Part shown: positions 1,501 through 63,143 of the stretch, in pieces | Layout of the letters: every line of letters starts with the position of its first letter | Numbering within the stretch: position 1 is the stretch's first letter | Origin: Thuidium tamariscinum | Lineage: Eukaryota; Streptophyta; Bryopsida; Hypnales; Thuidiaceae | DNA: 64,000 nt | Assembly (NCBI GenBank): GCA_947034885.2 | Contig: OX344752.2 | Location: 23,583,386-23,647,385, forward strand | Reading direction: 5' to 3' | Notes under the pieces: generated by a model | Told to the model about the DNA's origin: nothing | The model's database searches: none | The model's input: only the letters and a program-made list of their open reading frames with translations | Program-made: the position numbers and the translations under genes

Positions 1501-1512
1501 AGTACATGTTAA

Positions 1513-2152
1513 CCCGTAAATGCCCAAGGCCTGTCTTGAGCTATTTGGAATTTGTTCTAAGTTGAACAAAATGCCAACATTTTGATAAGTTGTATCAATT
1601 TTTCTTGAACTGTAACCGTACAAATTCAAACTAGACATGTTAGAGCTTGTGTAGGAAAAGAAAACACAACAATATACTTATGGAATGAAAGATTATAATG
1701 TTTGACCATGAAGGTGTTAAAATTGCAAAAGTGATGTGAAGTCTTTCTATCCTCTTTTCCCAAGTCAAATCTAAAAAGTTGGTGAAAAAAAAAAAGTTAA
1801 CAGGGCCTAACATACATAACTCCAATCAATTTATGGCTTCTCAAAATCTACTCCACAATTTTTGTAAATGAATTTTGAATGTGTTTTTTCTCCAAAATCA
1901 AGTGTGTTTGAGGCTCATTTTCAAGAGCTCTCAACACTACGGAAAGTCAAGATTGCAATGGGTACCCTTGCACAAAATCTTGAATAGAAAATCACTATCA
2001 TTCACTTTCTAGATTGGATTTTTGACACCAAAACTAGACTTCTAAAAGGATTTTCCTAAAAAATAAACTACTAAAAAAAGCAACTTGATTACATTTCATT
2101 TAACTTCAAAGTTTTGCAAACACTTGATTGTAGTGCCGTAGGCAATTAGGGG
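1513..2152 (+). mobile_element. TTAA-flanked element, subfamily A, copy 1 (640 bp)
   Basis: Flanked by TTAA at 1509-1512 and 2153-2156. The left terminus is cccgtaaatgcccaaggcc; the right terminus is taggcaattagggg, an imperfect inverse. It aligns end to end with 18387-19264 except for the CACTA foldback inserted there; the matching uninterrupted site here is near 1617-1630. No open frame. Confidence 0.85.
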
Positions 2153-2242
2153 TTAATATATTACTCTGTACTACATTGTGTCAATTTTTTTAGAAATAAA
2201 GTTTTGTGTTGATAGTAATTCAATTTCTAGGTGTTATTAATT

Positions 2243-2555
2243 TATGGCAAATTTCATTATAATGGCAGTATTCCATTAGTTTGACACTTTTGATTGTTCA
2301 AACCGCACAGTCTAAAATCTAAAATTGTCATAGATTTTTGAAATCTATATGAGTTGTAGATGTCTGGAATCTACACCTGTCCAAGGTGTTTCAGACTATG
2401 TAGTTTTGAAATCTAAACATGTCATAGATTTTGAAAATCTACATGTGTCTTAGATGTTTGAAATCTATACCCTTCCTAGATATTAGTTTTTAGTTCAAAC
2501 CGTGCAGTCTGAAAAATGGCATAAGGAATACCGCCATTTTAACAAAGTTTACTAT
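2243..2555. mobile_element. Family O foldback element, copy 1
   Basis: Left end atggcaaatttcattataat and right end taccgccattttaacaaagtt are inverse copies. Between them, short blocks such as 'aaatctacatg' and 'tagatttgaaatctat' repeat in alternating orientation. The same architecture is seen at 6725-7045 and 52433-52755. Probably a foldback miniature element; class unknown. Confidence 0.65.
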
Positions 2556-2559
2556 ATTT

Positions 2560-5380: not shown

Positions 5381-5741
5381 CCCTTAAACAACGTGCACGC
5401 CAGTTTCTGGTTGATGAATGATTTCCAAACAGTTTGCCGCATGAGGAAAACAAAGTTTTTCATCAAATTTTTTTCGGTAGCAAAGTTACGATTGTGTGCC
5501 ATCATGCAGTGCATTGAAAATCCTCAATCAATGAATTCATATATTTACAGGAGTCCAAATTCTCAGAAGAGGGTGTTGGATTTACAATGCCCCTCTTGTA
5601 AATTGCCTGCTGGACTACATCCTTTGTTGACTTGTGTTCCATTTCACATCTGCGATTGGTCTAGCTTTAGCGGTCAACGCAGAAATCGATACTGTTCAGC
5701 GGGCTGTTGCCCCCCATGGTGACTTGCCCGTCGTTTAGGGG
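5381..5741 (+). mobile_element. TTAA-flanked element, subfamily F (361 bp)
   Basis: Flanked by TTAA at 5377-5380 and 5742-5745. Termini are cccttaaacaacgtgcacg and the inverse cttgcccgtcgtttagggg. The open frame across it (109 codons from 5393) spans the element and resembles no known protein, so I do not call it a gene. The interior is unlike the other subfamilies; only the ends and target agree. Confidence 0.75.
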
Positions 5742-6338: not shown

Positions 6339-6388
6339 CCATGGATCTCCTTCAAGTAGACTACGTTTGTCCCATTTTAATGAAATGA

Positions 6389-8440: not shown

Positions 8441-9656
8441 GGGGCCAATCCACCCAGATCTTACTGCCTCACAAGCATGCAGCGTTCGGTTCCCGCAGAA
8501 ATGTGCGTGAAACGTGAAAGGAAATCGCCGGGAATGCTGCATCAGGACGATGAACAGCCCCGCCAGTGAGCGGGAATCTGGAGAATACTACGGAGTACTA
8601 ATGGGGATTACCTCTTTCCGCTGCTTTCACGTCTTGCCGGCAGCTCACTAATTATCTCTCCGCAAAAACTTTCCTTGTGATAGTCACAGTTGTGAAACGA
8701 TCCGTCCGTGGGTGGCCTCCCCCTCGCGGTGGGGATTCGTCTACTATTCGCAGGGATGGTGAGAGTACTGCTTGTGATTGCACGGTGCAAGGAAAATGTC
8801 ACAGAACTTGCCCAGTCGTAACTCGTTAGAGTTTCACTACTACTACTGGTTTGATCGTCTTCTAGACTTTGGGGGATGGAGTTCGTGGAGTCGAGATTCA
8901 AGCGAGATGGAGGTCTCGAAGGTTGACATTGTGGTTGATGTTACTGGTAGTGCGTGACACTAAGTTCCCTTGTACAATCGAGCGAAAGATTGAGAAAGAT
9001 GAGATAGTGTTCTTTGCGCGCCGCGATTTTGTAAGGGTCGAGCTCGGTTTTCAGCTTCGTGCACTTCTCTGGCTCTTCTTCATTTACGCGTGGATGATTT
9101 TGATGTGCAACTCCGAATCTGGTGCTCCTTGAGCTCTTCTGCCCTTGCACACAGAGCAAGTCTACGAAGGAGCAGTTCTCCGCGTCCTCCACTTAGAATT
9201 TTTCAATCAGTTCCAGCCCGACGCGACGCTCGCAGTGCCCATCTGCTCCTGTTGTGACCATTTTACTCAAAGGCTTTTGGCAGCTCAGGTATTTGAAGTA
9301 GATAACAAGCCTCAAGGATCTCTGAGTAGTTTCGACGACAGTCACTGAGCTTGTGTACAATCATGTTGGTCGTGCGCCAAAGTTATAACAAGTTTGAAGA
9401 GAATGAGATCTTATAACTAGAATCGATGCAGATCTGAGGTTCCAAACGAGCGTCTGGAGTGGGCCAATTCCTTGATGTTTTGCGATTTTTAACTAGTTGG
9501 TCGATTTGTCGACCTGTCTGTCTGCAGAGACGAGTGAACCTCAAACGCGGTCATGACCGTGAAGCTTATTAGAGATTGGAGCTATGGATGCATGCGCAGT
9601 TGCCTGCTAGGTACGCGGTGCGCGTCCTCATCTTCACATCGTTGGATTGATCGACA
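8440..9656 (+). promoter_or_regulatory. GC-richer leader and promoter region of the fucosyltransferase-like gene
   Basis: Base composition rises abruptly near 8440 and stays higher up to the start codon at 9657. No repeat family recognised in this window occurs here. Open frames on both strands are short, overlapping and without motifs. I infer promoter plus 5' untranslated sequence, possibly with a leader intron, but no specific transcription start can be assigned. A small unrecognised gene cannot be excluded. Confidence 0.4.
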
Positions 9657-12600
9657 ATGGGCAATTCCAAGTTATGGCGATTCTCCGGCCAAATGCCGAC
9701 CTCCATTCAAGTTGCCGTGTTGATCGTCAGCTTGATCCTCGTCCTTTGCTCCGTCAGCTACCAGATGCTGCCGACCAACTCTTTGGGTGACAACTTCAAC
9801 AATTTACTTCTCGGCGTCTCTTGGGGCGCCACCGGCATCAAAAACAACACCCAGTTCGACAATGCCGGAAATACCAACATTATTGCGGTCGCCCCTGTTG
9901 TAGACAGTCTGTACTATCCCCCTAAACAGCAAGCTTCCGAAAATTTCTCGTTCCTCGTCCCTATGATAGCGCCTTCGGTAGATCTCTCCGCTTCGGAAGC
10001 TCCTGGTGATGCGCCACTCCCTCACATCGAGACTACTTTGCCTGGAACTGGTTCAAGCGCCGCCGGGCCGGAGGTATCAAACACGACGAGCATTGTAGCG
10101 CCAACGCCCTCTGTCACCGTATGCCTCCCCTAAACCCTGAATTTAGGCCCCAAATCTTCTGTGGTGGGCGATTCAAATTTCTCTGAGTTCGATTCAGTTG
10201 TGTTCCAAGGGCTCATGAGATTGTGATTTTCAGGAGGAGGACGCTCGGGAGAAATTCATGGTGCCGGTCTTGACTTGGCGAGTCGGAGCAGGGAATCAGT
10301 TCATGGAATACATTAATGCGGCCGTCATAGCCCGGTCGCTAAACCGCACGTTGTGTCTTACGCCTTTCTTTCCAGGGCCATCAAGACACGTCGGGGCTAA
10401 TCGATCGCGAGGCTTTAGAGCATTTTCACGAGAAGGTTAGTCAGACGGTTTTCAATCACGTGATGGGCCTCCTCTTTCCCAGAATTTCTTTAGTTTCTGT
10501 TATTTGTCGTTCTCCCGGACGCACTGTCTCTGAGGTGACATTGGGAATCAATGGTTCAAGATCAGCAAGTTTCATGGGTTTGTGTCAAATTTTCGACCTG
10601 GATAGTTCTTGAGGATTTTTGTATTCCAGCTGCAAATGTCGACCAAATTAGTGGATGGCAGATTAGGTTACCCCCATGACTGATTTTATCGTGACCGCCA
10701 TCGTGGTGGCAGGGACTGTGCACCCTGGATTGGCATGGGAGGACCGATTCGAAGTGTCATCTCTCTCGAGATTCACCCGCGTTGCATCTCTGAAGCGGTG
10801 CTTTCAAGAGTGCGCCTACACCCTCGACGACATTTGGATGCTGAAGTCATCGCAGGAACCGATCATTGAACAGTGGAAGCAGTATCCTTCCCCGAAAGTA
10901 CGTCTCTTTACTACCCTATGTCTGTGAATATGCCGTAGATCGAAATTGCGAGTAGGGATGTGACGAATCGGGAACTTCTGATTGCAGGATTCCATGAACT
11001 TAAACTGGGACTACGTGAAGTGGACGACGACGGAGGATATCACGGCCACCCTCGGCAAACGCAACGACCGCTGTGTCGGAATGTATGGCATGTTTCCGGG
11101 ACTGCGATGGAGAGGCGCATTTTTAGCGGTCTCCGCTTTTCTACAACCCGCTCCTCGCATCGTGGAACTCGCGGACGCGCTTCAGAAGTCTGCTCTCGGG
11201 ACGAGCACTCCCTACTTGGCAGGTACGAGAATATTTCGTGGAGCGGGTACCTCCTAATTTCAATTTCTCACTGACTTTACAGTCGGAATCGCGCCGATTC
11301 AAGTCACTCATATCGATTCTGGCTTTGAAATCGTACATGACATCACAAGTACAATCATAAATTTGATTAAATAGTGGTTTTGACTCATTGATCGTGTATG
11401 CCCTCATGCATAGATCATGAACGAATCTTACACATATATTTTACATATCTTACATATATGTCTTATATTGATTCGACTCTGTATTCTTCCAGTTCATTGG
11501 CGATTTGAGGAGTCGGAATGTGGGGCACACAACATCGGACTCTGCTTCGTGCGATGTGAAGACGGCTCCGTGATTGACACCGGCTTGCCCTCACAAGCCA
11601 AAGAGTGGCATGATGCGGCTAAGATTCAATGCAACAGAGACGGCCATTTCCGAGGAGTGACTTTGGACAAGACGGACATCTTAGATGCCATTCAGGAACG
11701 CGCTGGCAAGCACAACGTCGGCACGATCTACTTTGCAACAGATGGTTGGATGCGAGGACCGCAAGGCGTTCGCCTCGTGCGGGAGACCGTTGAGGGCTTG
11801 CGGCAACGAGGACTCACGGTCGTCGGATTATGGAAGGTTCCAGGATTGTCCAACTTCAACGACAGCAAATTCTTTGACCCTGTGGAAACCTTTGGACCCA
11901 ACAACCAGGTACGCAATCAGATTAGTATTCGGGTTTCGGCGCTTGCATTTACACATCTTATCCGATCATACGGAGCAAGGTTTAATGCCCGTGAACAGGC
12001 CCCGTTTTTCAATCCGCCTCACAAAAATAGGTTAAGCAGTCACGCTGGGTTCTTTGCAAAGTCCTTTCTCCAAAAGGTTAAAAGAAGCACGATTGTATGA
12101 TTTTTAGGGTGGTGATTAAGGGGATTGTAGAGACTTGTAATTCGCCGCCCATCAGCAAACCAGAACGACGAGAATGAGGAAAGACGCTTCCCACTCCAAT
12201 ATTTCACAATTCCACAAATCTCTGAAAAACATGATTCAAATTGCTTTCTTCATCATAGCATTTTATTTTTTCAAGAGATTTTGCTTCATACATTTTTGGC
12301 CAGAAGAAAGTGGTCTTAGCTCTGATTCACCCCGCTGCTGCAGGACCTCAGCGGTGCACAGATAGCGCTTGTGGAGCAGGAGCTGTGCTCGCGAGCGGAC
12401 TCTTTCTTAGGCAGCGGGCAATCCACCTGGAGCCTGGCCGTGTTCCGGGTGCGATTGGCACGGCGACGCGTCAAGCAGATTGTGGAGGCAGCGGAGCTTG
12501 ATAGAAGCGTGGATCTGAAGGACCGCAAGGCTGTGGACCGTCTCATCGCCGACACGCTGCTCAAGGACCTGCACCCTGCAGGTCTGCATTGCCGGTACTT

Positions 12601-12739
12601 ACGGTTCATGAAACGCTACCGCGTGAACGAGACCGTGGAGACCAACGCCGACGAGTACCCCGATGGCTGGTTGGATCTGGAGGCCTGTGAGGGACGCATT
12701 GGCCGCGGCGGTCGTTGCGTAGTGGCTCAGTGTTTTTGA
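9657..12739 (+). CDS. Membrane-anchored GDP-fucose protein O-fucosyltransferase-like protein (6 exons, 631 aa)
   Basis: Exons: 9657-10118, 10234-10435, 10713-10897, 10988-11222, 11493-11908 and 12344-12739. All introns are GT-AG and the reading phase is kept across every junction. Residues about 16-40 form one hydrophobic segment after a short N-terminus with few charges, as in type II Golgi/ER glycosyltransferases. A Ser/Thr/Pro/Asn-rich stem follows to about residue 154. The catalytic-type region opens with WRVGAGNQFMEYINAAVIAR then SLNRTLCL, the N-terminal signature of PF10250. Exons 4 and 5 join to give YLAVHWRFEESEC, the family's H-x-R-x-E motif, followed by the GTIYFATDGW strand. The last exon holds ALVEQELCSRADSFLGSG then STWS, the usual C-terminal nucleotide-sugar motif. 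Expected role: transfer of fucose from GDP-fucose to Ser/Thr of secreted proteins. The acceptor is unknown, and the first exon start is simply the first ATG before the anchor. Confidence 0.85.
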
Positions 12740-14050
12740 AGAGTGTCCTGTACATTATCATTTCTATTGTTGGTGCCAGGAATATCACTGCATTGGTACC
12801 TAGGTTGCCGCTTCCTTTTCATTGAGATTCAGGGAATGAGATAGAATAGCCTGATAAAATTTGGAAATTGCTTCCTCGACTAGCTTCGAGCAGATAATAC
12901 TGATTTCAGTTTGAGGGCTGATAAGGAATTTAAACGCCTCTGATATGGTCATAAACACAAACAAAATCAGAAAATTACGCTAGTGCATAGTCACAAAACG
13001 ATTTTTTAGGGGACCCGACACTTGAATGTGTGTCCCCGCCAGTCAGTATGGTGAAGTTAGTGAAAGTTCGCACGGAAATGTAATTTTGACACTTGGACGA
13101 AAAGGGTTTAAGGCATCTGAGATATTCATTCAAAGTATCGTGATCAGTTCAGGAGCCATCTGTATGAAAATGACGGGGATAAAATGCCATGCGAACCAGT
13201 TTTCTACCTGTAGAATTGTGTTTGCCAGATGATGCAGATGATTCTCAGGGAGAGCTGCACAACTCAAAGCGGAAGGCACAGCTCGCAACCGTCCACAGTA
13301 GGCGAAAAAGATTAGGGCAAAATTCGACCAGATCTGGCTTCTTTCCCCAGTCTTAGTAGGAAAGAGGGAGTCATCTGCTGGAACAAAGTGAGGCCTAACA
13401 GGTGCTCCTTGATTTAGGTTTTTGTAGTTCATTCATGATGGCTTGATATTAGGCTGGTTTCTCTCTTGTCCGGCCCCCATGGCCTGGCTGTTGTTTTTCT
13501 CCGGTGCTCGATGCAGCGGGTTCTCCCATTTGTTCGAAAAAACGACACAGATGATTTACTGAGTATTTGCTGCTCAGTCTGTTCAAGTGAAGATTGTGAC
13601 AAGCCACAACCGATTGCTACGATGTAGTTCTTGACGTTTGTTTAGAATGACAGCCTACACATTCCAACGGACTTTCTTGTTTGTACAGCTTTCACCTTCT
13701 TCTGAAATCGTCTCGAGGCTCCTCTCTCTGTTGTATATGGTGGGAGATATTGGCTTCATTCGTAGTCATGTAAAAGTTGTTCTGCAACAGGTAAAGAAAT
13801 ATGATGGCGAGCAAATCGTTGATATACCGGTATTGAATTATGCTGTGGTATTTACATTATTGATCGATGAACCTAATGGCAGAACTGCAGAAGTTCATGG
13901 GCCAAGAGCTTTGACCTTTGACTAGTTCTTCAGATAACCATCTATTTGACAAATTTCAACACTAAAGACATCGATCAGTCAACTTTGAAAACTCCTGAAG
14001 CATGGTAATGAAACATTCTGAACTAGAGGTGTTAAACACCCGTCCAGACA
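12740..14050. other. Space between converging genes; 3' untranslated sequence of both
   Basis: About 1.3 kb between two stop codons that face each other. Composition is intermediate and no recognised repeat family occurs. The open frames (e.g. 13130-13432 and 13638-13925) are short and lack motifs. The region most likely holds the 3' untranslated ends of both flanking genes. Confidence 0.45.
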
Positions 14051-15596
14051 CTAAAATTCCTCAGTGAACTTGTACGCTACCATGGCTTCGACTTGATGTA
14101 CCTGCACAAAGTCACATGTCGAAAAGCTTAGAAGAGACCTTTCACAATATGCAGCGGGAAGATCTGCATTTCTCTATCAAACTTATGGAGTTTCAGTGTT
14201 CTTTAAAGTCGAGCACTCTGAATCTAGAGAAAATTTAGAATTGAATTTGAACTCATTTCAGTAATGACAATTGCAAGCAAAATTAAAAAATATAATGAGA
14301 GGGAGAGAAAGAGATGAACATTGAGTAGTACCATGGTATCAACCGTCCTCAACTTCACAACTTGAGGGTTGTGAATCAGTTGAGCATCACTCTCCGTCCA
14401 CTCTGCAGGCACCTGAAGTAACATGCACGATATTAGAAAACCTGGAATATAATTAAACAGTGATAACGAAGTAATGCCGAGAAGAGCAGTAGTGCTCCGC
14501 CGACCTGGAACTCAGAAAGCTACAGCATGACGAACATGGAGATTCAAAGGGATCTGAAAATTCCCGGGGAAACAAATGAATAGTGTAAGATCTACAAAAC
14601 AGAAAAAACAAGATACTGGAAATTTTTCCGGTGAACTCTTTGTACCTCAGAATCAATGGACGTGTACGCAAGCAAATCAAACGTGCAAGCTTCCTCGATA
14701 TTAGGAAGAAATGTCACACTGGATGTGATCTGCCGCATGATGGCCTGAATCTCTTTCATAATGTCCTTGTCGTTCTTCTCTCTGGAGACCCTGCATCACA
14801 ATTCCATCGCCAATAAATGCAAGGATTCCGAGACTCAGAGGGAATTCAAAGATGCATAGAAATTAGGGTGAAATCCATCGTACCCTTTCTCAAGAACCTC
14901 CCGATCATTCTCAATGTTGAAGTTCCAGCGCTCAAGGACCTCCTTGGAGGAGATACTCGCAATGACCAACACCACACGCTGAAGATTCCCAGTTTCCAGC
15001 CAAGTTGCAATCTGTGTCGTAATTTTATCTATGAATGCTTTCACGCTCTCTTGCTGGCACATCAGCAGTGTCATCCCGTACTTCTTCACGCGGCCGAATT
15101 CGTCGGCCGGGTAAATCCCTCGCTGGAACAAAATGCTGTTCACTGCAACACTCAAAATTGCCGAGCTTAAGTGAGAACATGCAAGTCTGTACAATTAGAT
15201 TAACAAGCCCTGCAATTGGAACCCAAACAGTGAATCATACTTCTGGATCCAACTACAAAACGAATCACACTCTCGGACACAAAGCTTGCGCTTGTGGATT
15301 CCTGCTGTGAGCTCTTCAAATCACATTTCTTCTCGAAGGGAAGAAAATGTCGCTCGACTAGGACCCATTGCGTACAATGGCCATGGCTTAATGGACACAA
15401 GCATGAAAACCCTAAAAACTACGTGACTCACCTTCCATCAGCCTTGAGGGCTACAATCGGCAAGAAGAGGATTTATAATGCATCTCATATGATCCACAAG
15501 CAAGCGGCACACACCTGAATACAGCAAAAACTCGCTGACAATGGCAGCAGAGCCCTTGAGTGTGATCACATCCCTCGTGAGCTGCTCAGAGGCCAT
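14051..15596 (-). CDS. MAD2: Mitotic spindle assembly checkpoint protein MAD2 (5 exons, 205 aa)
   Basis: Exons in transcription order: 15596-15515, 15142-14884, 14790-14646, 14412-14332 and 14101-14051. All introns are GT-AG, phases 1, 2, 0 and 0 join without a break, and the length equals that of typical MAD2. The start is chosen because MASEQLTRDVITLKGSAAIV matches the family's N-terminus; an in-frame upstream ATG at 15671 would add 25 atypical residues. The HORMA fold is readable throughout: SILFQRGIYP, VKKYGMTLL, WLETGNLQRVVLVI, EVLERWNF, then SREKNDKDIMKEIQAIMRQI and the C-terminal safety-belt part with TESDAQLI and VEAMVAYKF. MAD2 binds MAD1 at unattached kinetochores and, in its closed form, inhibits CDC20 of the anaphase-promoting complex. 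No truncation or frameshift is visible. Confidence 0.95.
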
Positions 15597-16020
15597 AGCT
15601 ACACCGTCAAATGCCTTTCTCCCCGGTTTCAGAAACAAGCTCCAAGCGACGAAGCGGAGAGCTCCAACCACCGTGTTCGGAAACCCGAAATCAGGCGAAT
15701 GGGATCTTCAACGCGAGAAAAAGCTCCAGGACAAGACAATTTGTGAAAATTAGAGGATTGTAGGAAACTGCAAAGGCTGAAGGCGATCGACAGAGGGGCT
15801 AGCGCGACGCGGTATTGAAGCACATTTGAATGTGGAAGAAGAAGCCGTTAAGGGGAACGAGGAGCAGATATCGTCCCACGGAGAATTTGTCGTCAGAGCT
15901 ACGTCGAACCTCGTCGTGCTATGGATGAACAGTAATGCGATTCGTTGATGAACGTGGCACTGCGAACTTTATCCATCCAACGTCCTGCAGCAAACGTAGT
16001 GTAGTTTACAATTCTTTTCT
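15597..16020 (-). promoter_or_regulatory. Upstream region of MAD2
   Basis: The higher-GC composition of the gene continues to about 16010 and then drops sharply to AT-rich DNA. This span probably contains the 5' untranslated region and promoter of the minus-strand MAD2 gene. No clear TATA box or start site could be fixed. Confidence 0.4.
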
Positions 16021-18386: not shown

Positions 18387-19264
18387 CCCCTAAATTTCCA
18401 AGGCCTATTTTAAGCTTCTTGGAATTTATTCTAAATTGAGCAAAATGCCATCATTTTGATAAGTTATATCAATTTTTTTTAAATTGTAACCATATAAAAT
18501 CACTACAAGAGGATTGGGGGTGTTTTAAGTATAGTCCTAGAGATAACATTTTAAGTAATGACCTTTTTAGGAGGTTTTAAGTAAGAAATAAGTGTCTTTC
18601 TAGTAAAATTTTACTAGAAAGACACTTATTTCTTACTTAAAACCTCCTAAAAAGGTCATTACTTAAAATGTTATCTCTAGGACTATACTTAAAACACCCC
18701 TTTCTCTTGTAGTGAATCAAACTTGACATGTTAGAGTTTGCTTAGGAAAAAGAAAGCACAATAGTATTACTTACGGAGTGGAAGATTATAATGTTTGACC
18801 TTGAGGGTGTTAAAACTCCAAAAGTGATGTAAAGTCTTTCTATCGTCTTTTCACAAGTCAAATTTGAAAAGTTGGTGACCAAAAAAATATGAGGTTAAAG
18901 GGCCTAACAAGCATAACTCTAATCAATTTATAGCTTCTCCAGGAGCTTCTCAAAACCTACTCTACAATTTTTGTAAATGAATTTTGAATGTGATTTTTTT
19001 CTCTAAGATCCAATGTATTTGAGGCTCATTTTCAAGAGCTCTCAACATAGCAGAAAGTCAAGATTGCAATGGGTACCCTTGTAGAGAATCTTAAATAGTA
19101 AAATCACCATCATTCATTTTCCAAATCGGACTTTTGACACTAAAACTAGACTTCTAAAGGAACTTTCCAAAAATATAAACAACTAAAAATAGCAACTTGG
19201 TTAGGTTTTTTTAAACTTCAAAATTTTGCAAACACCATATTTTCGTGCCTTGGGCATTTAGGGG
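18387..19264 (+). mobile_element. TTAA-flanked element, subfamily A, copy 2, interrupted by a foldback
   Basis: Flanked by TTAA at 18383-18386 and 19265-19268. Termini are cccctaaatttccaaggcc and the inverse gccttgggcatttagggg, the best-preserved ends of subfamily A. Total length is 878 bp, of which 217 bp (the foldback plus one 3-bp duplication) are a later insertion; without it the copy is close in length to copy 1. Confidence 0.9.
18501..18714. mobile_element. CACTA-type near-perfect foldback (214 bp) with 3-bp target duplication
   Basis: Starts cactacaagagga and ends with the inverse tctcttgtagtg. The two arms of roughly 105 bp are almost perfectly complementary and meet without a loop in tctagtaaaattttactaga. 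It is flanked by aat on both sides (18498-18500 and 18715-18717). The empty site survives in subfamily A copy 1 near 1617-1630. Terminal CACTAC and a 3-bp duplication are the rule for En/Spm (CACTA) transposons; this copy is non-autonomous. A half-copy remnant with the same inner sequence lies at about 35010-35086. Confidence 0.9.
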
Positions 19265-19754: not shown

Positions 19755-20947
19755 TCACTGAAGTCGGTTCTTCAAATACCCTTTCTTCTTCTTCTTCACT
19801 GGAGTTTTTCCTCGACCTCCAATTTGGGGAGGCAGAGGACGAGTAGTTCGCAGGCCTTGAAATTTCGAAGGACCCACAATTGCAGCAGTCTTTTTAGCTG
19901 CAACACGATGTCTCCTGGCCGCACTCTCGAGCCTCTGCTGCTGCAATTGCTCTCCATTGATTATATTGGAGTCGTCATCCTGGTTTCCTCCCCGAGAAAG
20001 CATTTGCATATCGCCCATGCTCTGCCGGTGCATCTCTTCAAACTCCATCTCCGGTTCGGCCAGAGCTCCAACAGGCTTCTCTAATGCTTTCCTCCAAGTA
20101 TGGATTCGGCTTCTGAAAAGCTCTCGCACTGTCGTGCCGTCAAAGCCAGCATTCAAAAGCTGGAAGTACACTGCGTGCAGCAACGAGCCTTCTGGTGATG
20201 AAGAAGGGTGGTTCATCCAGGTCGGTTCTTCGTAGTCGGAGTCGGTCTCTTCTAGCACCAGAGGATGGTGGTAGCTTTCACCAGCTGCTGTTGCAATTGC
20301 AGATGGACGCGTCCCTTCCTCCGATTCTTCACCCTGTTTTTCAATTTCCTTGCTTCCGGTAAGTTCCAGCATGAAAGAATCCCGTTTCAATCTCAAATTA
20401 AATCAATTAATTCGCTAATTGAATGATCCACCAAGAGCTAGCGTGTCCGGCAAATGTAATTTGGGGGACGGACGCACTGACCGAGCAATCATGGAGTACA
20501 TAATTTGAGAACATATAACGTCTGTAGATTGACAAAGGAGTTGCGACTCACTTCTTGGTCTGACAGATTCATCCCCATAAACAATTTTACAGAGCAAAAC
20601 AAAATTGTGAAAGAACCGCAGACGTACGTACAAACGAATCAAGACAGCATCCTAGAAACAAACAAACATGGTTTAGACAGTGTTACCTGAACAGACAAAC
20701 ATTGTCCTAACATTGGTGCAAGCCTGGAATCAATTCCCCATGCCAGGAGCTAGAATTCATTGGGTTTCCGTCATGACTTCCAACATTTCTTCGATCAATT
20801 GGAAAAAAGAGAATGAAGGAAACTAATAAACGAAAACGGTACACGAGGACTTACTGAAATTGCCATGGAATTGAAGTCCACATGCTCCTCGCCATCGTGA
20901 ACGTAGACCTCCTTACCAGCGTCCATCTCCCGGAACTCCTTCGGCAT
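19755..20947 (-). CDS. Unrecognised protein, acidic N-terminal half and basic C-terminus (provisional 3 exons, 249 aa)
   Basis: Provisional exons in transcription order: 20947-20855, 20651-20632 and 20391-19755. Exon 1 starts MPKEFREMDAGKEVYVHDGE and ends at a strong donor (tca|gtaagt). The second exon is only 20 nt (encoding DAVLIR plus two bases); its donor is gtacgt, and the phase fits a tttgag acceptor at 20391. The middle exon boundaries are uncertain. Exon 3 is clearly coding, with an even composition above that of the flanks. It has an acidic stretch (EETDSDYEE), a predicted helical block SLLHAVYFQLLNAGFDGTTV then RELFRSRIHTWRKALEKPVG, a Gln/Arg-rich segment, and a lysine-rich tail (VKKKKKGYLKNRL). 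The basic tail suggests a nuclear or RNA-associated protein, which is only an inference. I do not recognise the family. Confidence 0.6.
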
Positions 20948-21230: not shown

Positions 21231-22264
21231 CTTATTAACTTACTTATGAGATGTTCATCATTTTCTATGATTACGGTGTAAATACTTTGAAGTTTAATTG
21301 AAAGATTTTCAACAAACTTTCTAATCTTAGTATTGTCCCATGATTGATTTTTCTTATTGGATATTCTAAGTCAAGACAAATACATGTAAATGATGGAGGA
21401 TGTCTTAGAAATCTTTCCAATGTTGTCAATCATATCCATTAGGGTTACTTATTGATTTTGGTTCTATTGATAGGCATGAGCAAGAAACATGTGCTTAGTG
21501 ATTGTATTGCATTTGGAGATAGTACTATGAGTACTATGTGAGCTTTGGAGAATTTGAAAAAAAATTAATACATAAAATATGTAGTAGATCACTACAAATA
21601 ACATATTTCCAAAAATGAAATCTAAATTGAATTGACTTCAAAAATTATATAAAGGAATGAAGACTAAAATTTTAAGCTTTATTTGGTAAAATTTCTAGAA
21701 AACAATTAAAATTTTCAAAAATATAAATAATAAAAATAATCTTTTTTTAACAGCTTTATGGTGATGAGATTCTATCCAAAAATATATAGAAGGATAATTT
21801 TGAATGTTTAAAAATGTATGCACAACATAGCTTTATTGCATCTATGTAGAAAATAAGGAATTTTATTTAAAAAAATTTAGAATCCTTCCTACAAATTCTT
21901 GCAACTTCAGTATAGAAAAGATGATGTCTAAATTTTGAAGTGAAAATCATTAATTTGGACTCAATACAATACTACGAACATATCAAATCTAAAGTGTTAT
22001 AAATTAGAGATTTGAGTAGAAGATTATATGCTTTTTTTAGAAATTATACAAAAATATGTATTGACTTACACAATGTATCATTCACCTCAACTGCAAAATC
22101 CAAATATAATGAAAGAAATTCATAGACTTTATACCAAATTTTGTATTGTATGGACAACGTATGTTGCGAAATAATACAAGTGTTTTATGCTTTCTCTATG
22201 CATTTTGTACAAAATGAATCGATCTATGTCAATTTTAGTTGCTTAGTGTTGTTGAATGTACAGT
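21230..22264. other. AT-rich intergenic stretch, nothing recognised
   Basis: No open frame of note, and no similarity to the repeat families seen elsewhere in the window. Confidence 0.4.
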
Positions 22265-22266
22265 GA

Positions 22267-23646: not shown

Positions 23647-23662
23647 CCACTATACATATTAA

Positions 23663-24580
23663 CCCCTAAAGGACCAAGGCCTTTTTTCTGTCAAAAACCT
23701 CTCAGAACTGCTATTTTTGTTGCATTCATCCATGAAAACAATTTTTTTTAAAGAATCTAATTGTAGGATCTTCTACTTAACTTGATTGAAATCATGTGGT
23801 AAAAGTTTCATGAAGTTTGATAGTATAGATTGGAAGATATAAGTATTCAAAGTTGGAAATACAAGTTTTTTTGAACGGTGGTCTGCAATTTCAGATGACT
23901 TTGACTGGCATTTGTAAAAAAATTTACAATACAAACCTTGAATTTATAATTTTTTTGTGCTAAAAAATTGACTTGAGAGTCTAGGAAAAAAATTTCATAC
24001 AAAAAACACTTGATTTTCATTCTTTAAAACATTGTTACATAGATGTAGGTCCAAGATTGAAAAAAAAACTAAATGGTTGATAACTCTAAGATGGGATTGA
24101 AATACAATAATCCCAATAGTGAGATTGTTTTAGAAAGTAAACATAACCTTGTCCAACATTATTTTTTTGAAAAATTGTGAAAATTGCATTTAGAAATGAA
24201 TCCTATAAGTTATTTTTTCAAGAAATTGTTTAGATTGCCCCCAAAACAAGATTGTCCATTACTTTCTCATTATAGGTCCAAATAGAATGAATCAAAGCTT
24301 CACATGTAGGCAAAAATATATTATTTTAGGAAAAAAATATTTTAAAACTAAATTTTGACTTTTTGCAAAAAAGAATTCTACCCACTGAGTGAAAATTTGG
24401 GTTTTGGGTGGTATAACCTTTGCTTCCACCCACCAACTGAAATAAAAATTATGTTCCTACAAAGCTAATCAATTTTTCTATCTTATGAAAAAGTTTCAAA
24501 AGGTTTCACCAAAAATTGAAGTCATAGGAACCTGCCTGAAATCCATTTTGTGCCCCAAGGGGACAATGGTCCTTTAGGGG
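23663..24580 (+). mobile_element. TTAA-flanked element, subfamily B, copy 1 (918 bp)
   Basis: Flanked by TTAA at 23659-23662 and 24581-24584. Termini cccctaaaggaccaaggcc and the inverse gacaatggtcctttagggg share the first ten bases as a perfect inverted repeat. It aligns throughout with 31947-32870 (inverted) and 62219-63139. No coding frame of significance. Confidence 0.9.
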
Positions 24581-28525: not shown

Positions 28526-29011
28526 CCCCTAAAGTCCTAAGCTGTGCTTTTGGGCAATATAAATTTTCTGGGCAACTTACTACGAATGGAGTTTTTATTT
28601 TTTTTCTTTGAAATTTTAGTTTGTGGATAGGTATGGTTTTCAAAAATTCCATACCTACCCGCAAACTAAAATTCCTCATAACGTTTGACTCCTTACTCCA
28701 AATAAAATGAAACAAAGCTTCCCATTTTTGTAAAAACCTAAAGAATCAATTTGAAATTTCACTTTTGAAAAAAAAGTTTTTTTAAAGAAATTTTTTTAGC
28801 TGCCTGGGTTGCCATCCGAGTAAAGAAAACAACATATCATACCATAATTTTTTAACCAGAAAGTCAAAAGTTATGAAAATTGTTGGGCCTTAAAACTACC
28901 CCTTGGCTACATCTTGTGTAAGAATTTCAAAGAAAAACAAACAAACTCCATTTGTAGTGAGCTATCCAAAAAATTTATGTTGTCAAAAAACGCAGCTCAT
29001 GGCTTTAGGGG
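28526..29011 (+). mobile_element. TTAA-flanked element, subfamily C (486 bp foldback derivative of D)
   Basis: Flanked by TTAA at 28522-28525 and 29012-29015. The right two-thirds align with the right half of D copies ('cctaaagaatcaatttgaaa', 'ctgcctgggttgcc', 'tagtgagctatcc'). The left end (about 100 bp) is an inverse copy of its own right end, so this element arose by loss of the D left half and duplication of the right end in inverted orientation. Confidence 0.85.
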
Positions 29012-31946: not shown

Positions 31947-32870
31947 CCCCTAAAGGACCATTGTCCCCTCGGGGGACAATTTGGAGTTCGGGCAGGTACC
32001 GTAGGCTTCAATTTTTGGTGAAACCTTTTGAAACTTTCTCACAAGATAGAAAAACTGATTAGTTTGGTGGGAATGTAATTTTTATTTCAATTGGTGACCG
32101 GGAGCAAAAGTTATACCACAAAAAGCCCAAATTTTAGTTCGGCGGGCAGAATTTTTTTTTTCAAAAATTCAATTTTAAATTTTTAAATTTTTTTTTTCTG
32201 AAACAATATATTTTTGCCTACATGTGAAGCTTTGATTCATTCTATTTGGACTTATAATGAGAAAGTTATGGACAATCTTATTTCTCGGGCAATCTAAACA
32301 ATTTCTCAAAAAAATAACCTATAAGATTCATTTCTGAATGCAATTTTCACATTTTTTCAAAAAAAATTGTTGGACAAGGTTATGTTCACTTGCTAGAACA
32401 ATCTCACCATTGGGATTATTGTATTTTAATCCCACCTTAGAGTTATTAACCATTTAGTTTTTCTTTAAATCTTGGACCTACATCTACTTAACAATTTTTT
32501 AAAGAATGAAAATCAAGTGTTTTTTGTATAATTTTTTTTTCTTAGACTGTCAACTCAATTCTTAAACACAAAATTTTTTTAATTCAAAGTCTATAGTGCA
32601 AAAAAGTTCAACAAATGGCAATCAAAGTCATCTGAAATTGCAGTTCACAGTTCAAAAAAAAATTGTATTTTCAACTTTGAATGCTCATATCTTCTAATCT
32701 GTACGGTCAAACTTCATGAAATTTTTATCACATGATCTTAGTCAAGTTAAGTACGAGATCCTACGGTTAGATTCTTAAAAAATTATTTTTTTTGTTTTCT
32801 TGGGTGAATGCAGCAGAAATGGCAGTTTTGAGAGGTTTTTGGCAGAAAAAAGGCCTTGGTCCTTTAGGGG
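31947..32870 (-). mobile_element. TTAA-flanked element, subfamily B, copy 2 (924 bp, inverted)
   Basis: Flanked by TTAA at 31943-31946 and 32871-32874. Read on the plus strand, it begins cccctaaaggaccattgtcc and ends ccttggtcctttagggg. It is an inverted, closely similar copy of 23663-24580. Its interior 'gagttattaaccatt' (about 32441-32455) is the uninterrupted version of the site into which element E inserted in copy 4. Confidence 0.9.
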
Positions 32871-33680: not shown

Positions 33681-34626
33681 CCCCTGAAGGTTTTTGATTA
33701 TGTTTTCACCAAAAATGCTCCAAAACTGCCATTTCTAATACAAGTGCAATGTTGTTTTTTTAAAACACATTTTTGACTCATGTAATTGTATGATCTTGTA
33801 GTAAGGTGGTTTGTAAACATGTGGAAAAAATTTCAGAAATTTCCACCGTGTAGATTGCAAGATATAAGCATTTGAAATTGACAAAAATTGTTTTTTTATC
33901 CCTGCGAAAATCCAGGTAGCTGCACTTCACATGGTCACATTTGTGTGAAAAAAAATTCAAAATGGTGGTTACTCTTTGAATTCATACTTCAATGCAATTT
34001 GGCTACATCTTCAAAAAATTTCAAACCATTTGGAATTGTACAACATATAGGAAAAAATAAGTAAGTAGAAAGAAGTAAAAAATGAGCCAAAATACTAAAT
34101 TGTGAACATTTTATTCATGGAATTGAAAATTTTCAATCCCAATGGTTAAAATGTTGTAATAAACAATCTACACCTTCTGTTTTTATTTTTTTTCAAAAAT
34201 ATGAAAAATTGAATTAAATGAAGAATTTCAAACTTTTTTTGTACTGTAGAGATTCTGTAAGTGGCTGTAAACTACCCTGAACTCAAAATCTTCATAACTT
34301 TTGACTCATTGATTGGAATGGATTGATTCAAAGCTCCCCATGTTTGTATAAACCTAAAGAATTAATTTGAAATTTCACTTTTTTTTTAAGTTTTTTTTAT
34401 AAAGTTTTTTCAGCTGCCCGGGCTGCCCGCTGAGTAAAAAAAAAACCATATCCTACCATAACTTTTTAACTATGAAGTCAAAAGATATGAAAATTTTTAG
34501 GCCTTGAAGCTACTCCTTGGGCACACATTGTATCAAAATTTCAAAGAAAAAAAATAAAAACTCTATCTGTAGTGAGCTGCCCAAAAACTTTAGAATTTCA
34601 AAAAACGATGTTTAGGGCTTTAGGGG
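33681..34626 (+). mobile_element. TTAA-flanked element, subfamily D, copy 1 (946 bp)
   Basis: Flanked by TTAA at 33677-33680 and 34627-34630. Left terminus cccctgaaggtttttgatta, right terminus tgtttagggctttagggg. Aligns end to end with 48841-49758 ('ccaaaactgccatttct', 'attgtacaacatatagg', 'tagtgagctgccc'). Confidence 0.9.
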
Positions 34627-46577: not shown

Positions 46578-48333
46578 ATCCTAAAGTCCCAGTGTCCATA
46601 CATACAAGAGTAAGAGAAAATTGATTTTGGATAGGTCCTTGTGAGCAAAATGTTTGGCAAAAATTTTGAAACATTTTTCTAAGATAGAAAAAATTACTAG
46701 CTTTTTGCATATATCATTTTAATTTCATTTGGTACCTAGAACCTAAAGTTATACCACTATAAGCCCAAATTTCAACTTGACATGCAACAAAAGAAATCCG
46801 TAAAAACTTATAATAAAGAATTTATATTTTTTCATAGATTATATTTTTTGTATTCATGGAAAGCTTAGTTTTGTTTTATTTGGATTTGTGATGTGAAAGT
46901 CATCAAGCATCTTGTTTTGTAGGCAACTAGAGTATCTTTTTGGAAAAAATGACATATATGATTTATTTTTTAGCTCGATTTTACATTTTTTCAAAACCAA
47001 AAGTTCCAGGAGATTAGCTTTGATTATTAAAAATATTTAACCATTGGAATATATTTGTTCAATTACATCTTAAAACTATGAACCCCTCAAGGACACAATA
47101 TATCTTCTTCAATGGAAAATTCTTGCTAGAATGAAATAAATTTCATATTTCATAGACTAGGATTTTGTAGAATAGCAAATTGAAGGACTTGTTGCATTTT
47201 TTATTTTCAAAATTTCAATGGCAGAAGAATTTATAACTTTATTTAGAGAACTTTATCTTATTTTAGAAAGGGGGGCAAACAAATACATTTTTTGCAATTA
47301 GAGGAATATTGGGGATGGAAAAAACACTTTCATGGTCAATTCTACTCTTTGGTCTGCACAAAAAAATTGGGTTTGGAGGAGATAATTTCAAAATTGTATT
47401 TTTAGCAATTTAAGAAAAAATGAGGTTCAGTCTAGTGTGATCAAGAATACAAACTAATTAGAATGAATCCAAATTCTTTGAAGATGATTCCATGATATTC
47501 TAACAAAATTAATTGTTAAATTTCAAAAATTGAGGCATAAATTACTTTCTATTTGTTTTATAGGATCCAATTTGGTCAATTTTGATTTTCTACTCCTTCT
47601 ATTGAAAATGAATATGAAGTTGAGAGAGTTTTTTTTTCTAAATCTACCTTGGATTCCAATCTAATTATGTTAGAAGGGTAGAAATTTTTTATTATTATTA
47701 TAATTTTTCTTCCCTTCAAGTCACACCTTTTTTTGCCTATAAGTTCATCACCCAAATTTGTTATAATCTAAAAGTCCAATGTTCAATATTTTCCACAATT
47801 AATTTCAAGCATACTAAGCAAAGTAGTTTATATTTTTGGACAATTAAAATTAAAATTTTCAAGCACATTCAAGTGCAATAAAATATCAAAGTGGGACAAC
47901 TCATTGAAATGTCCATTGTCAAAAAGTTGTTAGGCCTTGAGGTGTTAATGGTTTCATTTTTCCCTTTATCTCATATCTACTTCTATCTATTTGATAGGTT
48001 TCAAGGAATGAAAATCAATTTTTTTCTCCCCTAAGACTCTCAATTCAATTCTTTGTGTCAAATTTCTTATAATTCAAAATATGTAGTCCAAAAATTTCAA
48101 ATTAAGAGGATTCATAGTGCCAAAAAACCATGTTTAATTTCAATGCATTTATCTTGTAATTTATGTAGTCAAGGTCTCTTAAATTTCTTCCACGCATTCT
48201 TATACTAGTTTATTGCAAGATCCTATAGTTAGATATGTAAAAAAATTGTCATTTTCATTTTTTTAGGTCTTTGCACTACAAAAGGCAATTCTGACTCAAT
48301 TTTGCTAATAAATAAGCCTTAGGACTATTGGGG
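46578..48333 (-). mobile_element. TTAA-type element, subfamily B, copy 4 (diverged, interrupted)
   Basis: The two parts, 46578-47078 and 47949-48333, together align with inverted B copies ('tttctaagatagaaaaa', 'atgaaaatcaat', 'gacaaaattgtc' type blocks). The flanking target has decayed (TGAA / TTCA). The central 870 bp is element E. Confidence 0.7.
47083..47944 (+). mobile_element. TTAA-type element, subfamily E (862 bp), nested in subfamily B copy 4
   Basis: Ends cccctcaaggacacaa and the inverse ttgttaggccttgaggtg. Right flank TTAA (47945-47948), left flank TGAA (47079-47082). Other B copies read ttaa without interruption at this place (32451 region; 62640 region). The interior shares nothing obvious with the other subfamilies. 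Confidence 0.8.
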
Positions 48334-48689: not shown

Positions 48690-49810
48690 ATGGATATAAA
48701 TAGTTGTCTTTGGTATGGAATTTTTTTATAATTATAGTATAGCTATACTATAAATACCTTAATTATAGGTGTTCATATTATAATCACCATCAATGGTTGT
48801 TGTATATCTACTTAATATATACATGCTTAACTTCTAAAGGTCAGAGACTATGTCTTCACCAAAAACACACCAAAACTGCCATTTCTGGTACAAGCATCAA
48901 ATTTTTGAAAAAATACATTTTTGGACACATGTAACTATAGGATCTTTTAGTACATAGGTGTGAAAATATGTGGAAATTTTTTTAGAAATTTTCACCATGT
49001 GGATTGCAAAGTATTAGCATTTGAATTGACAAAAACTCTTTTTTTTGTCCTTGCAAAAAAGTAGGCAACCATATTTCACTAGGTCACATTTCTATGAAAA
49101 AATGTCCAAAATGGTAGTGCTTCTTTGGATTCATTCTTCAAGGCAAGTTCACTACATGCTCCAAAAAAATTCGCACCATTTGGAATTGTACAACATATAG
49201 GAAAAAATTGGTAAGTAGAAGAAATAGAGAATGATTCAAAATACTAAATTGTTAAAATTTTATTTATGGAATCAAAAAATGCCAATCCCAATGGTTGTAA
49301 TGTTGTAACAAACAATCAACATTCATATTTTTTATTTCTTTTTCAAAAATATCAAAATAGAGTAAAGTAAAGGACTTCAAAGTTTATTTTAGAGTAGAGA
49401 ATCCATAACTCTCTGCAAACTAAATCTCCTCATAACTTTGATCTCATAAATCAAAATGGAATGATTCAAAGCTTTGTACATGTATATGAATCTAAAAAAA
49501 CAATTTCAATTATTATTCCTCAAAAAAGTGTTTTCTTAAGAAATTTTTGGGTTGCGTGCTAACCAATGAAAACTACATATCATGCAATAATTTTTTAACC
49601 ATGTACTCAAAATTTATGAAAATTGTTGGGCATTAAAGATACTCCTTGGACACATATTGTGTGAAATTTTTTACTTAAAAAACAAAAGAAAACTCCATCT
49701 ACAGTGAGTTGTCTAAAATTACTATATTGCCAAAAAACAGTGTTTGGACCTTTAGGGGTTAAGGCTCACATGCTCACACCTTCATGCTCACATACTAGCC
49801 TCATTGGGTT
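48690..49810 (+). repeat. Family S repeat, copy 1, interrupted by element D copy 2
   Basis: 48690-48836 plus 49763-49810 match 56895-57120 and, inverted, 54538-54760 ('ccatcaatggttgttg', 'tatatctactta', 'ggctcacatgctcac', 'ttcatgctcacatactagc'). The interruption is exactly one TTAA-flanked element. Confidence 0.7.
48841..49758 (+). mobile_element. TTAA-flanked element, subfamily D, copy 2 (918 bp)
   Basis: Flanked by TTAA at 48837-48840 and 49759-49762. Termini cttctaaaggtcagagac and the inverse gtttggacctttagggg. Empty versions of the site are at 57076-57086 (gctcaaggctc) and, inverted, near 54575. Confidence 0.9.
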
Positions 49811-52430: not shown

Positions 52431-52432
52431 TA

Positions 52433-54537: not shown

Positions 54538-54760
54538 AACAATACTAGTATGTGAGCATGAAAGTATGAGTATGTGACCCTTGAGCATATATATAAGTAG
54601 ATATTGTACATCTATTGAAAGTATTTATAATATAAACACCTATAATATAGGTATTTATAGCATATATGCATTATTATCATGCATAGAAGGTTATTATAAT
54701 ATAGATACTTATATCATAGGTGTGTAGTCTTCTAGGTTCATAGGCTCACATATCTAAGCT
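54538..54760 (-). repeat. Family S repeat, copy 2 (inverted, empty site)
   Basis: Inverse of the sequence that surrounds element D copy 2: 'ctagtatgtgagcatgaaag', 'cttgagcatatatataagta'. The site corresponding to the insertion reads ccttgag here (inverse ctcaagg). Confidence 0.6.
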
Positions 54761-56894: not shown

Positions 56895-57120
56895 TTATAA
56901 GAGCCTAAGAGTGTGAGCCCATGAGTCTAAAAGACTACATACTTATGGTATAGATGTCTATACTATAAACACTTCCTCTAATTGTAGTTTAACTATGCTA
57001 TACATACCTATATTATAGGTGTTTATGTTATTTATAATTACCATTAATGGTTGTTGTGTATCTACTTATATATATGCTCAAGGCTCATATGCTTGCATCT
57101 TCATGTTCACATACTAGCAT
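56895..57120 (+). repeat. Family S repeat, copy 3 (empty site)
   Basis: Continuous version of the sequence split by element D copy 2: 'aatggttgttgtgtatctac' runs through gctcaaggctc (57076-57086) into 'ttcatgttcacatactagc'. Confidence 0.65.
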
Positions 57121-57726
57121 TATTAGTGCAAAGTATATACTCAAATTGTACATACATGTATCAAGTTATCAATGAATTTTGAGACTAAAAAAATATATAG
57201 ATATTATTTGTAGGTCAAATACTAAAACTAAAACTTTGTGAGATCATAATACATCAAACAACATCCAAAAACCTAGGTTTATAAAAAAAATTCTTGACTT
57301 TATATATAGAGAAAGAGACAAAAAGACATTCATTTATTTACATTTGTACCTATTGTTGAAGACAAAATTTTCTCAATTTATAAGCCTTGTTAATCTTGGA
57401 ATGAATTGTTATATACCTTGAAAAATACATCTTTTAATTTTATAGCATTCAAATCATGGTTTTATAGTTGTTTACTACATTAATATGTAGCTTCTTAAAC
57501 TTTCTATTGACCAAGTTATAGACTTAACTACTCACTTATTGAAGGGAAATTTGAAGGTACTAATTAAAGTTTACATAGTGTCTATGATAAATTTATTACC
57601 ATTATTTTTTATATAAAAATTAGTATTCTAAAATGTACTACTATAATAATCAGCATGATTACCAAAGTCATAATTTTTTAATTACTACAATATTTAATTA
57701 TTTTCTTACATTTCTAAATTCTACGT
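57121..57726. other. AT-rich intergenic stretch, nothing recognised
   Basis: No feature seen. Confidence 0.4.
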
Positions 57727-59702: not shown

Positions 59703-59737
<35 letters not shown>

Positions 59738-60308: not shown

Positions 60309-60365
60309 CAAATTCACTTTTCCTTAAATCTACTTTATGGGGGATGTAAAAAAGTATGAGTTTTC

Positions 60366-60943: not shown

Positions 60944-61341
60944 AGAGCATCTCCATGGGTTGCATATAAGAGATGCGCAAGCAACGATTGCTTGCCGAGC
61001 CATCAAAGAAGCCTAGGCCTAGCCAAATAAATTTGCTCCACCCCAACACGGCGATTGAGAATGGGGAGTCAAACAATTTTAGATGTCAAGGTGCCACGTT
61101 GTGGATTAGAACAAGACAAACCCTTCTTCAATTTTAAAGTGCCTTGAAAGTAAGAATTAAATACAAAAAGCACATCAAGTCCAACCAAATACTCTCCATT
61201 TGGCCAAGCCATCATCAAATTTGATTGGACTTGGCCTTTCTTTTTGCTTCATTGTGTGTACTGTGGAGAAATTTATTTTGGCCAAACCCGACCAAATACC
61301 CATTTTGTGCCATATCTTGCGCTACATGGAGATGCTCTAAT
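60944..61341. mobile_element. 'GAGCATCTCC' miniature inverted-repeat element (about 398 bp)
   Basis: Ends agagcatctccatgggttgc and the inverse gctacatggagatgctct. The interior includes 'gaccaaatacccattttg'. Same terminal type as 53921-54181 but a different interior. Confidence 0.7.
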
Positions 61342-62214
61342 TCCCTTCAATTCCCAAATTGAACCAATATTTCAAGCACACTCAGTCTCTACTGATTCCC
61401 TCTATTTTTTACTCAAAACATAAATTCTATAGATTTATTCATTGAATTTTGTCAATGTTTTCAAATTCCAATTTCTTTTTTTACCAAATCCTTCTACTAA
61501 CTTTGAACTAGCTGCCAAGTTTTTTAAGATCATTAGAGAGAGCTATTGCAACATTCTTCTAAAAAAAGTAACTTTTAAGAATGAAGTACATTTTATTTTC
61601 TTCAATGAACCAATTGTGTACATTTTAAGAGGTGGTTGCTTTCAGAGATCAATGTGTTGTAAGTCCCAAAATTTATAAGTAATGGATACTTCACACAATG
61701 GTGAAAGGTTGAGAGGCCATGGATTTCTACTAATCAAATTTTAAGAAACCAAGACTTTGGTCTCTTGACCCTTGACCCTTAAAAATACAAGTCTAAAAGC
61801 CATCACCTTCTCACTACCTACATGGCAACAAATTGCTTATATGGTGACAAAGCCTCAAAGGAAGTTAAGGTCGGCTTAAAATGGAAATTCAAACTATGGT
61901 CAATAGGCTATAGAAGTTTTTCATTAAAAATCAAAATTTAAAAAGATCTCAATTAATAGATTGGTATGGTTTCACACTTGGAGCTTGGCCATAGGATGCT
62001 TCACACTAAAGCCACCTCCATTGAAAGGCCACAAAAGTTCATTGCCAAGGCTTAAGGCCGTTTAGATTTGGTTTGGGGAGACTTCTCACTATGGCCATCC
62101 AAATTGAGAGGTCATAGAAGTTCACTGCTAAGGATTTGGACTTTGAGTTTGGCCTTTGGAAGCTTTACATTATAGTCTTCCAAAATCTCTAAATCCTATT
62201 TTTTTTATTGCCTT
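61342..62214. other. AT-rich intergenic with a fragment of family L
   Basis: Segment about 61590-61690 ('gtacattttaagaggtggtt', 'aaatttataagtaatgg') resembles the left half of family L. The rest shows nothing. Confidence 0.4.
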
Positions 62215-62218
62215 TTAA

Positions 62219-63139
62219 CTCCTAAAGGCTCAAGGCCATTTTGGGGGGTCAAAAACCACTCAAAACTGCCATTTTTGTTGCATTTATCCAAAAGAACAAA
62301 AAAAGTGTTTTTATAGAATCTAACCTTAGGATCTTCTACTTTGTTTGTCTAAGATTATGTGGTAAAAATTTCATGAAGTTTGACCTTATAGATTGGAAGA
62401 TATGAGCATTCAAAGTTGGAAAACATAGTTTTGTTAAACTCTATCCTGCAATTTCAGATGACTTTCATTGCCATTTGTTGAATTTTTTTATACTATGGAC
62501 TTTGAATTAAAAAAAAATTGTATTTGAAAATCGAGTTGAAAGTCTAGAAAAAAAAATTCAAAAAAAAAAATGCTTGATTTTCATTCTTTAAAAAATTATT
62601 AAGTAGAGGTAGGTCCAAGATTGAAAGAAAAATTAAATCGTTAATAACTCTAAGATGGAGTTGAAACACAATATTCCTGACAGTGAGATTGTTCTATAAA
62701 GGAAATTTAACCTTCGAAAGCAATTTTTTTTAAATCTGAAAATTGCATTTAGAAATGAATCCTTTAAGTTATTTTTTCTAGAAGATGTTCAAACTACCCC
62801 AAAAACAAGATTGTTAATAACTTTCACATAACCAATCCAAATGGAATGAATCAAAGCTTCAAACGTAGACAAAAATATGATCTTTGAGACAAAAAAAAAT
62901 TTAAATTTAATTTCAAGTTTTTGTGGATTTATTTTTCTACCCACCGACTTGAAATTTGGGCTTTTTGTGGTATAACTCTTGCTCCTAGGCGCCAATTTAA
63001 ATAAAAATTATATTCCCATCAAGCTAATCTATTTTCCTATATTCTGAGAAAGTTTCAAAAAAATTCACTAAAAATTGAGGTCATTGGAACCTATCCAAAC
63101 TCCAAATTGATTCTCAAGGGGACAATGGACTTTAAGGGA
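62219..63139 (+). mobile_element. TTAA-flanked element, subfamily B, copy 3 (921 bp)
   Basis: Flanked by TTAA at 62215-62218 and 63140-63143. Termini ctcctaaaggctcaaggcc and the decayed inverse gacaatggactttaaggga. Aligns end to end with copy 1 at similar length. No coding frame. Confidence 0.85.
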
Positions 63140-63143
63140 TTAA

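Follow-up and report, generated by a model that had tools for sequence, protein, structure and literature searches.

Short sequences with CCCC-type termini and TTAA on both sides recur along the DNA analysed here (hereafter the window: 64,000 nucleotides of the moss Thuidium tamariscinum, G000:C4:23583386-23647385, in an assembly of 363 Mb and 19 contigs), and they raise the question of the superfamily to which they belong and of the transposase that moves them. In piggyBac, the transposase recognises the element tips and the DNA just inside them, uses three Asp residues to cut at the CCC ends, and places the element in a TTAA site that is thereby duplicated. We consider it very probable that the window elements are non-autonomous members of the piggyBac superfamily residing in a moss, and that full-length piggyBac transposons elsewhere in this genome move them in trans.

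Short TTAA-bordered elements

The window contains ten bounded elements (A1, A2, B1, B2, B3, C, D1, D2, E and F), together with a fragment that retains a right end and a copy that has decayed (Table 1). The earlier note had described TTAA-bordered elements with common ends, and this description is confirmed: where bounded elements carry CCCCTAAA-type ends, 19 of the 20 flanks are TTAA, the left flank of E being the sole exception. With up to two mismatches, TTAACCCCTAAAGG was matched 22 times in the 64-kb window against 0.82 expected, a count reached by none of 100 shuffles. The element tips start with CCC; the fourth base is C in CCCCTAAA, and one end of PB-1, a long element of the same genome, reads CCCT.

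Table 1. Coordinates of the window elements, of the host gene and of the long elements found elsewhere in the assembly
Feature	Position (strand)	Length	Borders, ends and remarks
A0	1..282 (+)		right-end fragment of A element, cut by window start; right end CCCCTAAATGCCC, TTAA at 283-286
A1	1513..2152 (+)	640 bp	TTAA both sides
F	5381..5741 (+)	361 bp	TTAA both sides; ends CCCTTAAACAACG / CCCCTAAACGACG; GC 0.435
MAD2 spindle-checkpoint gene	13900-15720 (-)	206 aa (exons joined by eye)	at least 5 exons; bryophyte-like
A2	18387..19264 (+)	878 bp	TTAA both sides; length includes 214-bp CACTA-ended insert 18501-18714
B1	23663..24580 (+)	918 bp	TTAA both sides
C	28526..29011 (+)	486 bp	TTAA both sides; internally deleted D-family element
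B2	31947..32870 (-)	924 bp	TTAA both sides; orientation opposite to B1
D1	33681..34626 (+)	946 bp	TTAA both sides
B4, one half	46580..47085 (-)		decayed B element, split by E; 63.6-65.6% identical to B1-B3
E	47083..47944 (+)	862 bp	nested in B4; left flank TGAA, right flank TTAA
B4, other half	47937..48333 (-)		decayed B element
D2	48831..49758 (+)	928 bp	TTAA both sides
B3	62219..63139 (+)	921 bp	TTAA both sides
e49	G000:C1:42570962-42578074	7,113 bp	TTAA both sides; D-type ends CCCCTAAAGGTCGGAGGTGT / CCCCTAAAGGACCAAACAGT
e34	C7:1354931-1360065	5,135 bp	TTAA both sides; B-type ends CCCCTAAATGCCCAAAGTCCCCTCGGGGGACA / CCCCTAAGTTCCCAAGGCATTTTCTGG; 774-aa open frame
e47		5,938 bp	ends CCCCTAAACGCC / CCCCTAAGCGCT
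e50		4,888 bp	ends CCCCTTAGCGACG / CCCCTAAGCGTCG
PB-1		5,088 bp	ends CCCTGAAACGCCGGGC / CCCCTAAACGCCGGC; both ends read in 2 copies

As TA lies within T-TA-A, TTAA followed by CCCC is indistinguishable by sequence alone from TA followed by ACCCC, which would also suit elements of the Tc1/mariner kind that duplicate TA and end in ACCCC; however, the outer T and A are nearly always kept, full TTAA being present at the 19 window flanks and at all 11 left flanks examined for PB-1 (see below). Moreover, among the 8-mers of the window that match CCCCTAAA at seven or more of eight positions, 20 are preceded by TTAA and six by TTGA, which ranks second, and only three end-like 8-mers follow another NTAN (ATAG, CTAG and GTAT, one each). 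The 3-bp duplication of Harbinger-like elements could not leave TTAA at each border of an element whose ends are symmetrical (CCCC..GGGG), and we regard a Tc1/mariner-like or Harbinger-like origin as very unlikely. TTGA was also considered as a second target and was rejected, the six sites concerned being scattered and looking like chance.

The elements were grouped by blastn and by a profile made from 21 full-length copies. Counted by interior, they form five groups, A (A0, A1 and A2), B (B1, B2, B3 and the decayed B4), C/D, E and F, in place of the six subfamilies proposed earlier; in addition, D2, previously thought to begin at 48841, begins in fact at 48831. A0 shares about 80% identity with A1 and A2 (blastn), and the ends of F are of the style seen in GC-rich autonomous lineages. 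Identity ranges from 65.5 to 99% among 14 B copies and from 73 to 97.5% among seven D copies, and B and D align with each other along their whole length at 50-56% identity (mean 53.6%), in an alignment that leaves out element C and the short D-like copies L007 and L018. Judged from this alignment, B and D are distant relatives; C, formerly taken for a separate family, is an internally deleted D relative, as its matches to D1 and D2 by blastn and profile show. The proposal of the earlier note that families with unrelated interiors have only their ends in common is wrong for B, C and D, which are homologous along their length, and may or may not apply to A, E and F; the interiors are therefore not all unrelated. 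The B and D elements stay at about 920 bp despite a divergence of up to 34%, with few indels; selection on their length was considered and dropped because other repeats of the window are similarly poor in indels, a weak control in that those repeats came from an ungapped finder. The own ends of B4 and its TTAA are no longer recognisable. Positions 26276-26487 match the profile (E 1.5e-14), likely as a B/D fragment, but show no recognised ends, and lone CCCCTAAA-like ends stand at 40915 and 44602/45166.

Two insertions can be read against unoccupied sequence within the window itself. When the flanks of D2 are joined through one TTAA, the resulting sequence matches paralogues at 56979-57124 and at 54545-54664, both of which carry a single TCAA at the insertion point and correspond to the unoccupied site; likewise, the joined flanks of E match B copies across the insertion site in B4. 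Both cases fit insertion with a short duplication, as expected of elements of this kind. A repeat in the flank of B1 was discarded as an unoccupied site, as it ends 5 bp before the insertion point without continuation beyond. Separately, clustered repeats, both direct and inverted and spaced about 175 bp apart, occupy 22256-23657 and stops a few bases short of B1. The insert of A2 is a 214-bp near-perfect palindrome with CACTACAAGAG ends and AAT on both sides, missing from A1; it is a CACTA-type MITE, and probably a young one because its 92-bp arms are 100% complementary.

An assembly-wide search with the ends plus TTAA, as the earlier note had suggested, returned 8,526 exact copies of TTAACCCCTAAAGG (4,286 + 4,240), against two (0 + 2) for the reversed-pattern control. 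Since the window has five exact copies of TTAACCCCTAAAGG for ten bounded elements, the total for the genome may lie near 10,000 in order of magnitude, a figure extrapolated from this one window. Twenty stretches of contig C1 were fetched around such ends; they were selected by TTAA and are thus uninformative on the TTAA fraction. An exact end pair is present in 19 of them (none in L024), spanning 696-931 bp in 18 cases and 7,547 bp in one mixed pair (L011, at 1.31 Mb of C1), and the closest copies are 96-98.7% identical. The mixed pair was rejected as one long element; it is probably two elements because its ends are of different type, D and B.

Transposases and long elements of the same genome

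A profile search of the moss genome with PF13843 gave 658 first-look candidates; 116 of them were scored, all above the cut-off (E 6e-80 to 1.4e-70), and by a hand tally 74 of these 116 places contain no stop within the match. Scored matches are present on each of the long contigs C1 to C10 (C1 measuring 54 Mb), and none of the 14 named control genomes was positive for PF13843. A single-protein search with e47 yielded 843 candidates, of which 82 were scored. All six proteins submitted to Pfam match PF13843. The open transposase frame of e49 measures 629 aa from stop to stop, and in e47 the transposase is split over two frames (312 and 527 aa).

Compared with known structures, the e49 protein matches piggyBat (E 1e-26) and piggyBac (E 1.8e-22) with three Asp aligned. 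These residues fall, by positions counted by hand, on 268, 346 and 447 of 6x67, the catalytic Asp of piggyBac. Across 42 relatives the first two Asp are invariant and the third is conserved in at least 90%. A C-terminal Cys/His pattern is visible, in a Cys-rich stretch whose alignment to piggyBat scores only 0.6 bits.

Among the long elements, e49 and e34 are the kind of longer relative that had been looked for, having the same kind of ends as the short elements and a PF13843 transposase in the same genome, and the piggyBac-type reading of the earlier note is thereby supported. Kolobok elements likewise duplicate TTAA, as described in PMC9587614; however, the termini given there are 5'-RR and YY-3', against 5'-CCCC and GGGG-3' in the window, and the transposase domain of the long elements bearing these ends is PF13843, which leaves a Kolobok affiliation highly improbable. 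The same domain inside matching ends speaks against Sola3, which duplicates TTAA, and against any other superfamily with a 4-bp TTAA-like duplication. Although Sola labels do occur in a fern repeat table (PMC6890710), we hold this origin to be the most improbable of those considered. All the long elements examined carry PF13843, and no other class of transposase was met within these ends. In several further lineages, single ends are alike. By themselves, CCCCTAAAGG-like ends were set aside as evidence at PF13843 loci, their occurrence at five of the first 30 loci being no higher than the background density of such ends.

The PB-1 lineage is represented by 11 copies (L036-L046) with at most two differences over 3,984 bp. 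The transposase, rather than the ends, served to pick these copies, and 11 of 11 have TTAA at the left flank, with DNA beyond it that differs between copies; the different duplication that would have told against the earlier note was thus not encountered. Near-identical copies standing at different TTAA sites strongly indicate that this lineage moved very recently. Near position 217 of one of them (L038), TTAGTCCTTTAGGG directly precedes the TTAA of the PB-1 copy. This sequence resembles the right terminus of short elements such as those in the window and, given this resemblance, the copy may sit at a short-element border.

The short and the long elements were compared in two ways. Firstly, the B/D profile matches both ends of e34 (374 bp, E 1.8e-50, and 205 bp, E 4e-24) and both ends of e49 (216 bp, E 1.5e-25, and 363 bp, E 4e-12), reaching the element tips in each case, and it matches the left end of e47 up to the tip (174 bp, E 4.1e-11). 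The profile has no match in e50 and PB-1, and the recently active PB-1 is therefore no demonstrated partner of B/D elements. Secondly, short-element ends were compared with long-element ends and judged against versions in which the first ten bases were fixed and the rest shuffled 200 times (mononucleotide), with ten long-element ends for each short-element end and values uncorrected for multiple tests. All six B ends beat 200 of 200 shuffles against the matching e34 end (the CCAAGG side with the 3' end, the TCCCC side with the 5' end), as do the 3' ends of C, D1 and D2 and the 5' end of C against the 3' end of e49. The 5' ends of D1 and D2 fit best with the 3' end of e34, above the 5' end of e49. 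The fit of E to autonomous ends is weak (two of 200 shuffles as good in the best case), that of A is uneven, and that of F is good on one side only; these three are placed in piggyBac mainly by TTAA and their first bases.

From these comparisons we infer that e34-like transposases served B and that e49-like ones served C and D. As identity between B or D and the known autonomous ends reaches only about 65-73% (aligned stretches, several copies), e34 and e49 may be cousins of the true partners, and to the short elements they stand at the distance of cousins, not of direct parents. The middle part of the B/D short elements has no match in e34 or e49; the end comparisons fit an origin of the short elements as internally deleted relatives of e34-like or e49-like transposons. 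In the proposed mechanism, full-length elements of the same genome would supply transposase in trans to the short elements; the protein would bind terminal and subterminal DNA of the element, cleave at the CCC ends by its three Asp residues and insert the element into TTAA, the four bases being duplicated.

Relatives of the transposases and the moss host

A database search with the e49 transposase gave 124 relatives. Within the best 120, the closest (P0001, environmental) is 75% identical over the full length, and all those with a species name are animal proteins of 26-31% identity. These named relatives might suggest that the elements come from an animal, or from an alga, in the sample, a contamination that we judge very improbable: scored transposases lie on each of the long contigs C1 to C10, same-ended elements surround a bryophyte-type MAD2 gene in the window, and the animal relatives are remote compared with the environmental one. 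Among the best 120 of 836 matches of MAD2, the closest named one comes from the moss Ceratodon purpureus (80% over 80% of the query), followed by Riccia and Marchantia (72%), Calypogeia (69%), the fern Adiantum (67%), lycophytes and flowering plants (at most 63%), Klebsormidium (60%) and Chara (56%), and proteins without species name reach 99, 88 and 82%.

A quick maximum-likelihood tree with midpoint root was built from 128 rows, namely the best 120 of the 124 relatives and eight of ten loci of the window genome (L030 and L054, which yielded no frame under the filter applied, were left out). A branch with 100% SH-aLRT separates the eight window-genome proteins and 79 environmental rows from the five named animal rows and 36 environmental rows, in a tree in which 43 of the 125 inner branches are open. 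In IMG/VR viral contigs, 176 stretches matched a pattern and none held a relative of the transposase. Considering both the elements and this grouping, it seems reasonably probable that piggyBac has radiated natively in this moss into a diverse and recently active set, with several co-existing autonomous lineages, some having their own cohorts of short elements, and with transposases that group with environmental ones and apart from the named animal ones.

The moss elements resemble piggyBac of Trichoplusia ni (6x67, 6x68) and bat piggyBat (9c0f) in their TTAA target, in ends that start with CC and in a DDE_Tnp_1_7 domain with three Asp aligned, but differ from them by remote sequence, by the plant host and by the presence of several lineages and thousands of short derivatives in one genome. 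By sequence, they are closest to the environmental piggyBac transposases (P0001 and others). With the animal piggyBac elements described in PMC10813416 and PMC12732532 they share the TTAA duplication and C-rich tips, mostly CCC; the commonest animal tips given there are of CCCT type (CCCTT for example), whereas CCCCTAAA dominates here and PB-1 has CCCT at one end only. In PMC10813416, piggyBac ends are given as CCC with TTAA, and the fourth base C of CCCCTAAA departs from the narrower rule, CCYT with TTAA, of PMC10175614. The short elements are also like the plant MITEs of the usual five superfamilies, as surveyed in 207 plant genomes (PMC12550479), being short, non-autonomous and of high copy number, with inverted terminal repeats.

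Native piggyBac elements are described as occasional in plants, for example in red algae (PMC12732532), and the C-fern repeat table has 1,230 'PiggyBac' fragments (PMC6890710). No report of piggyBac in mosses was found in titles and abstracts among the matches listed, a search outside which Repbase lies, where an entry could make part of this known. A term look-up in the genome papers on Sphagnum and Pohlia (PMC9946827, PMC9247546) gave no occurrence of 'piggyBac' in the main text, and in the text of the Niphotrichum paper the word occurs only inside 'piggybacking' (PMC10619864). With intact-looking, near-identical copies in a moss, land plants would join the hosts of an active piggyBac superfamily; should the radiation prove common to other mosses, piggyBac would count as an old component of bryophyte genomes and not as an animal speciality. 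Endogenous ends and transposases could be of use for plant genome engineering, a mainly haploid plant offers a setting to study the control of such elements, and with ends shared across many families, which transposase moves which short family becomes directly testable.

Other features of the window

Rfam gave no match in the 64-kb window. A GC-rich region (about 0.49) at 8600-12740 contains several frames of 160-228 aa, three of which were tested and are without Pfam match. A 215-aa open frame on the minus strand (19758-20402) has two relatives only in the protein database, at 65% and 38% identity, both from JGI metagenomes. Finally, tandem repeats with a 173-bp unit, about 93% alike, occupy 39780-40213.
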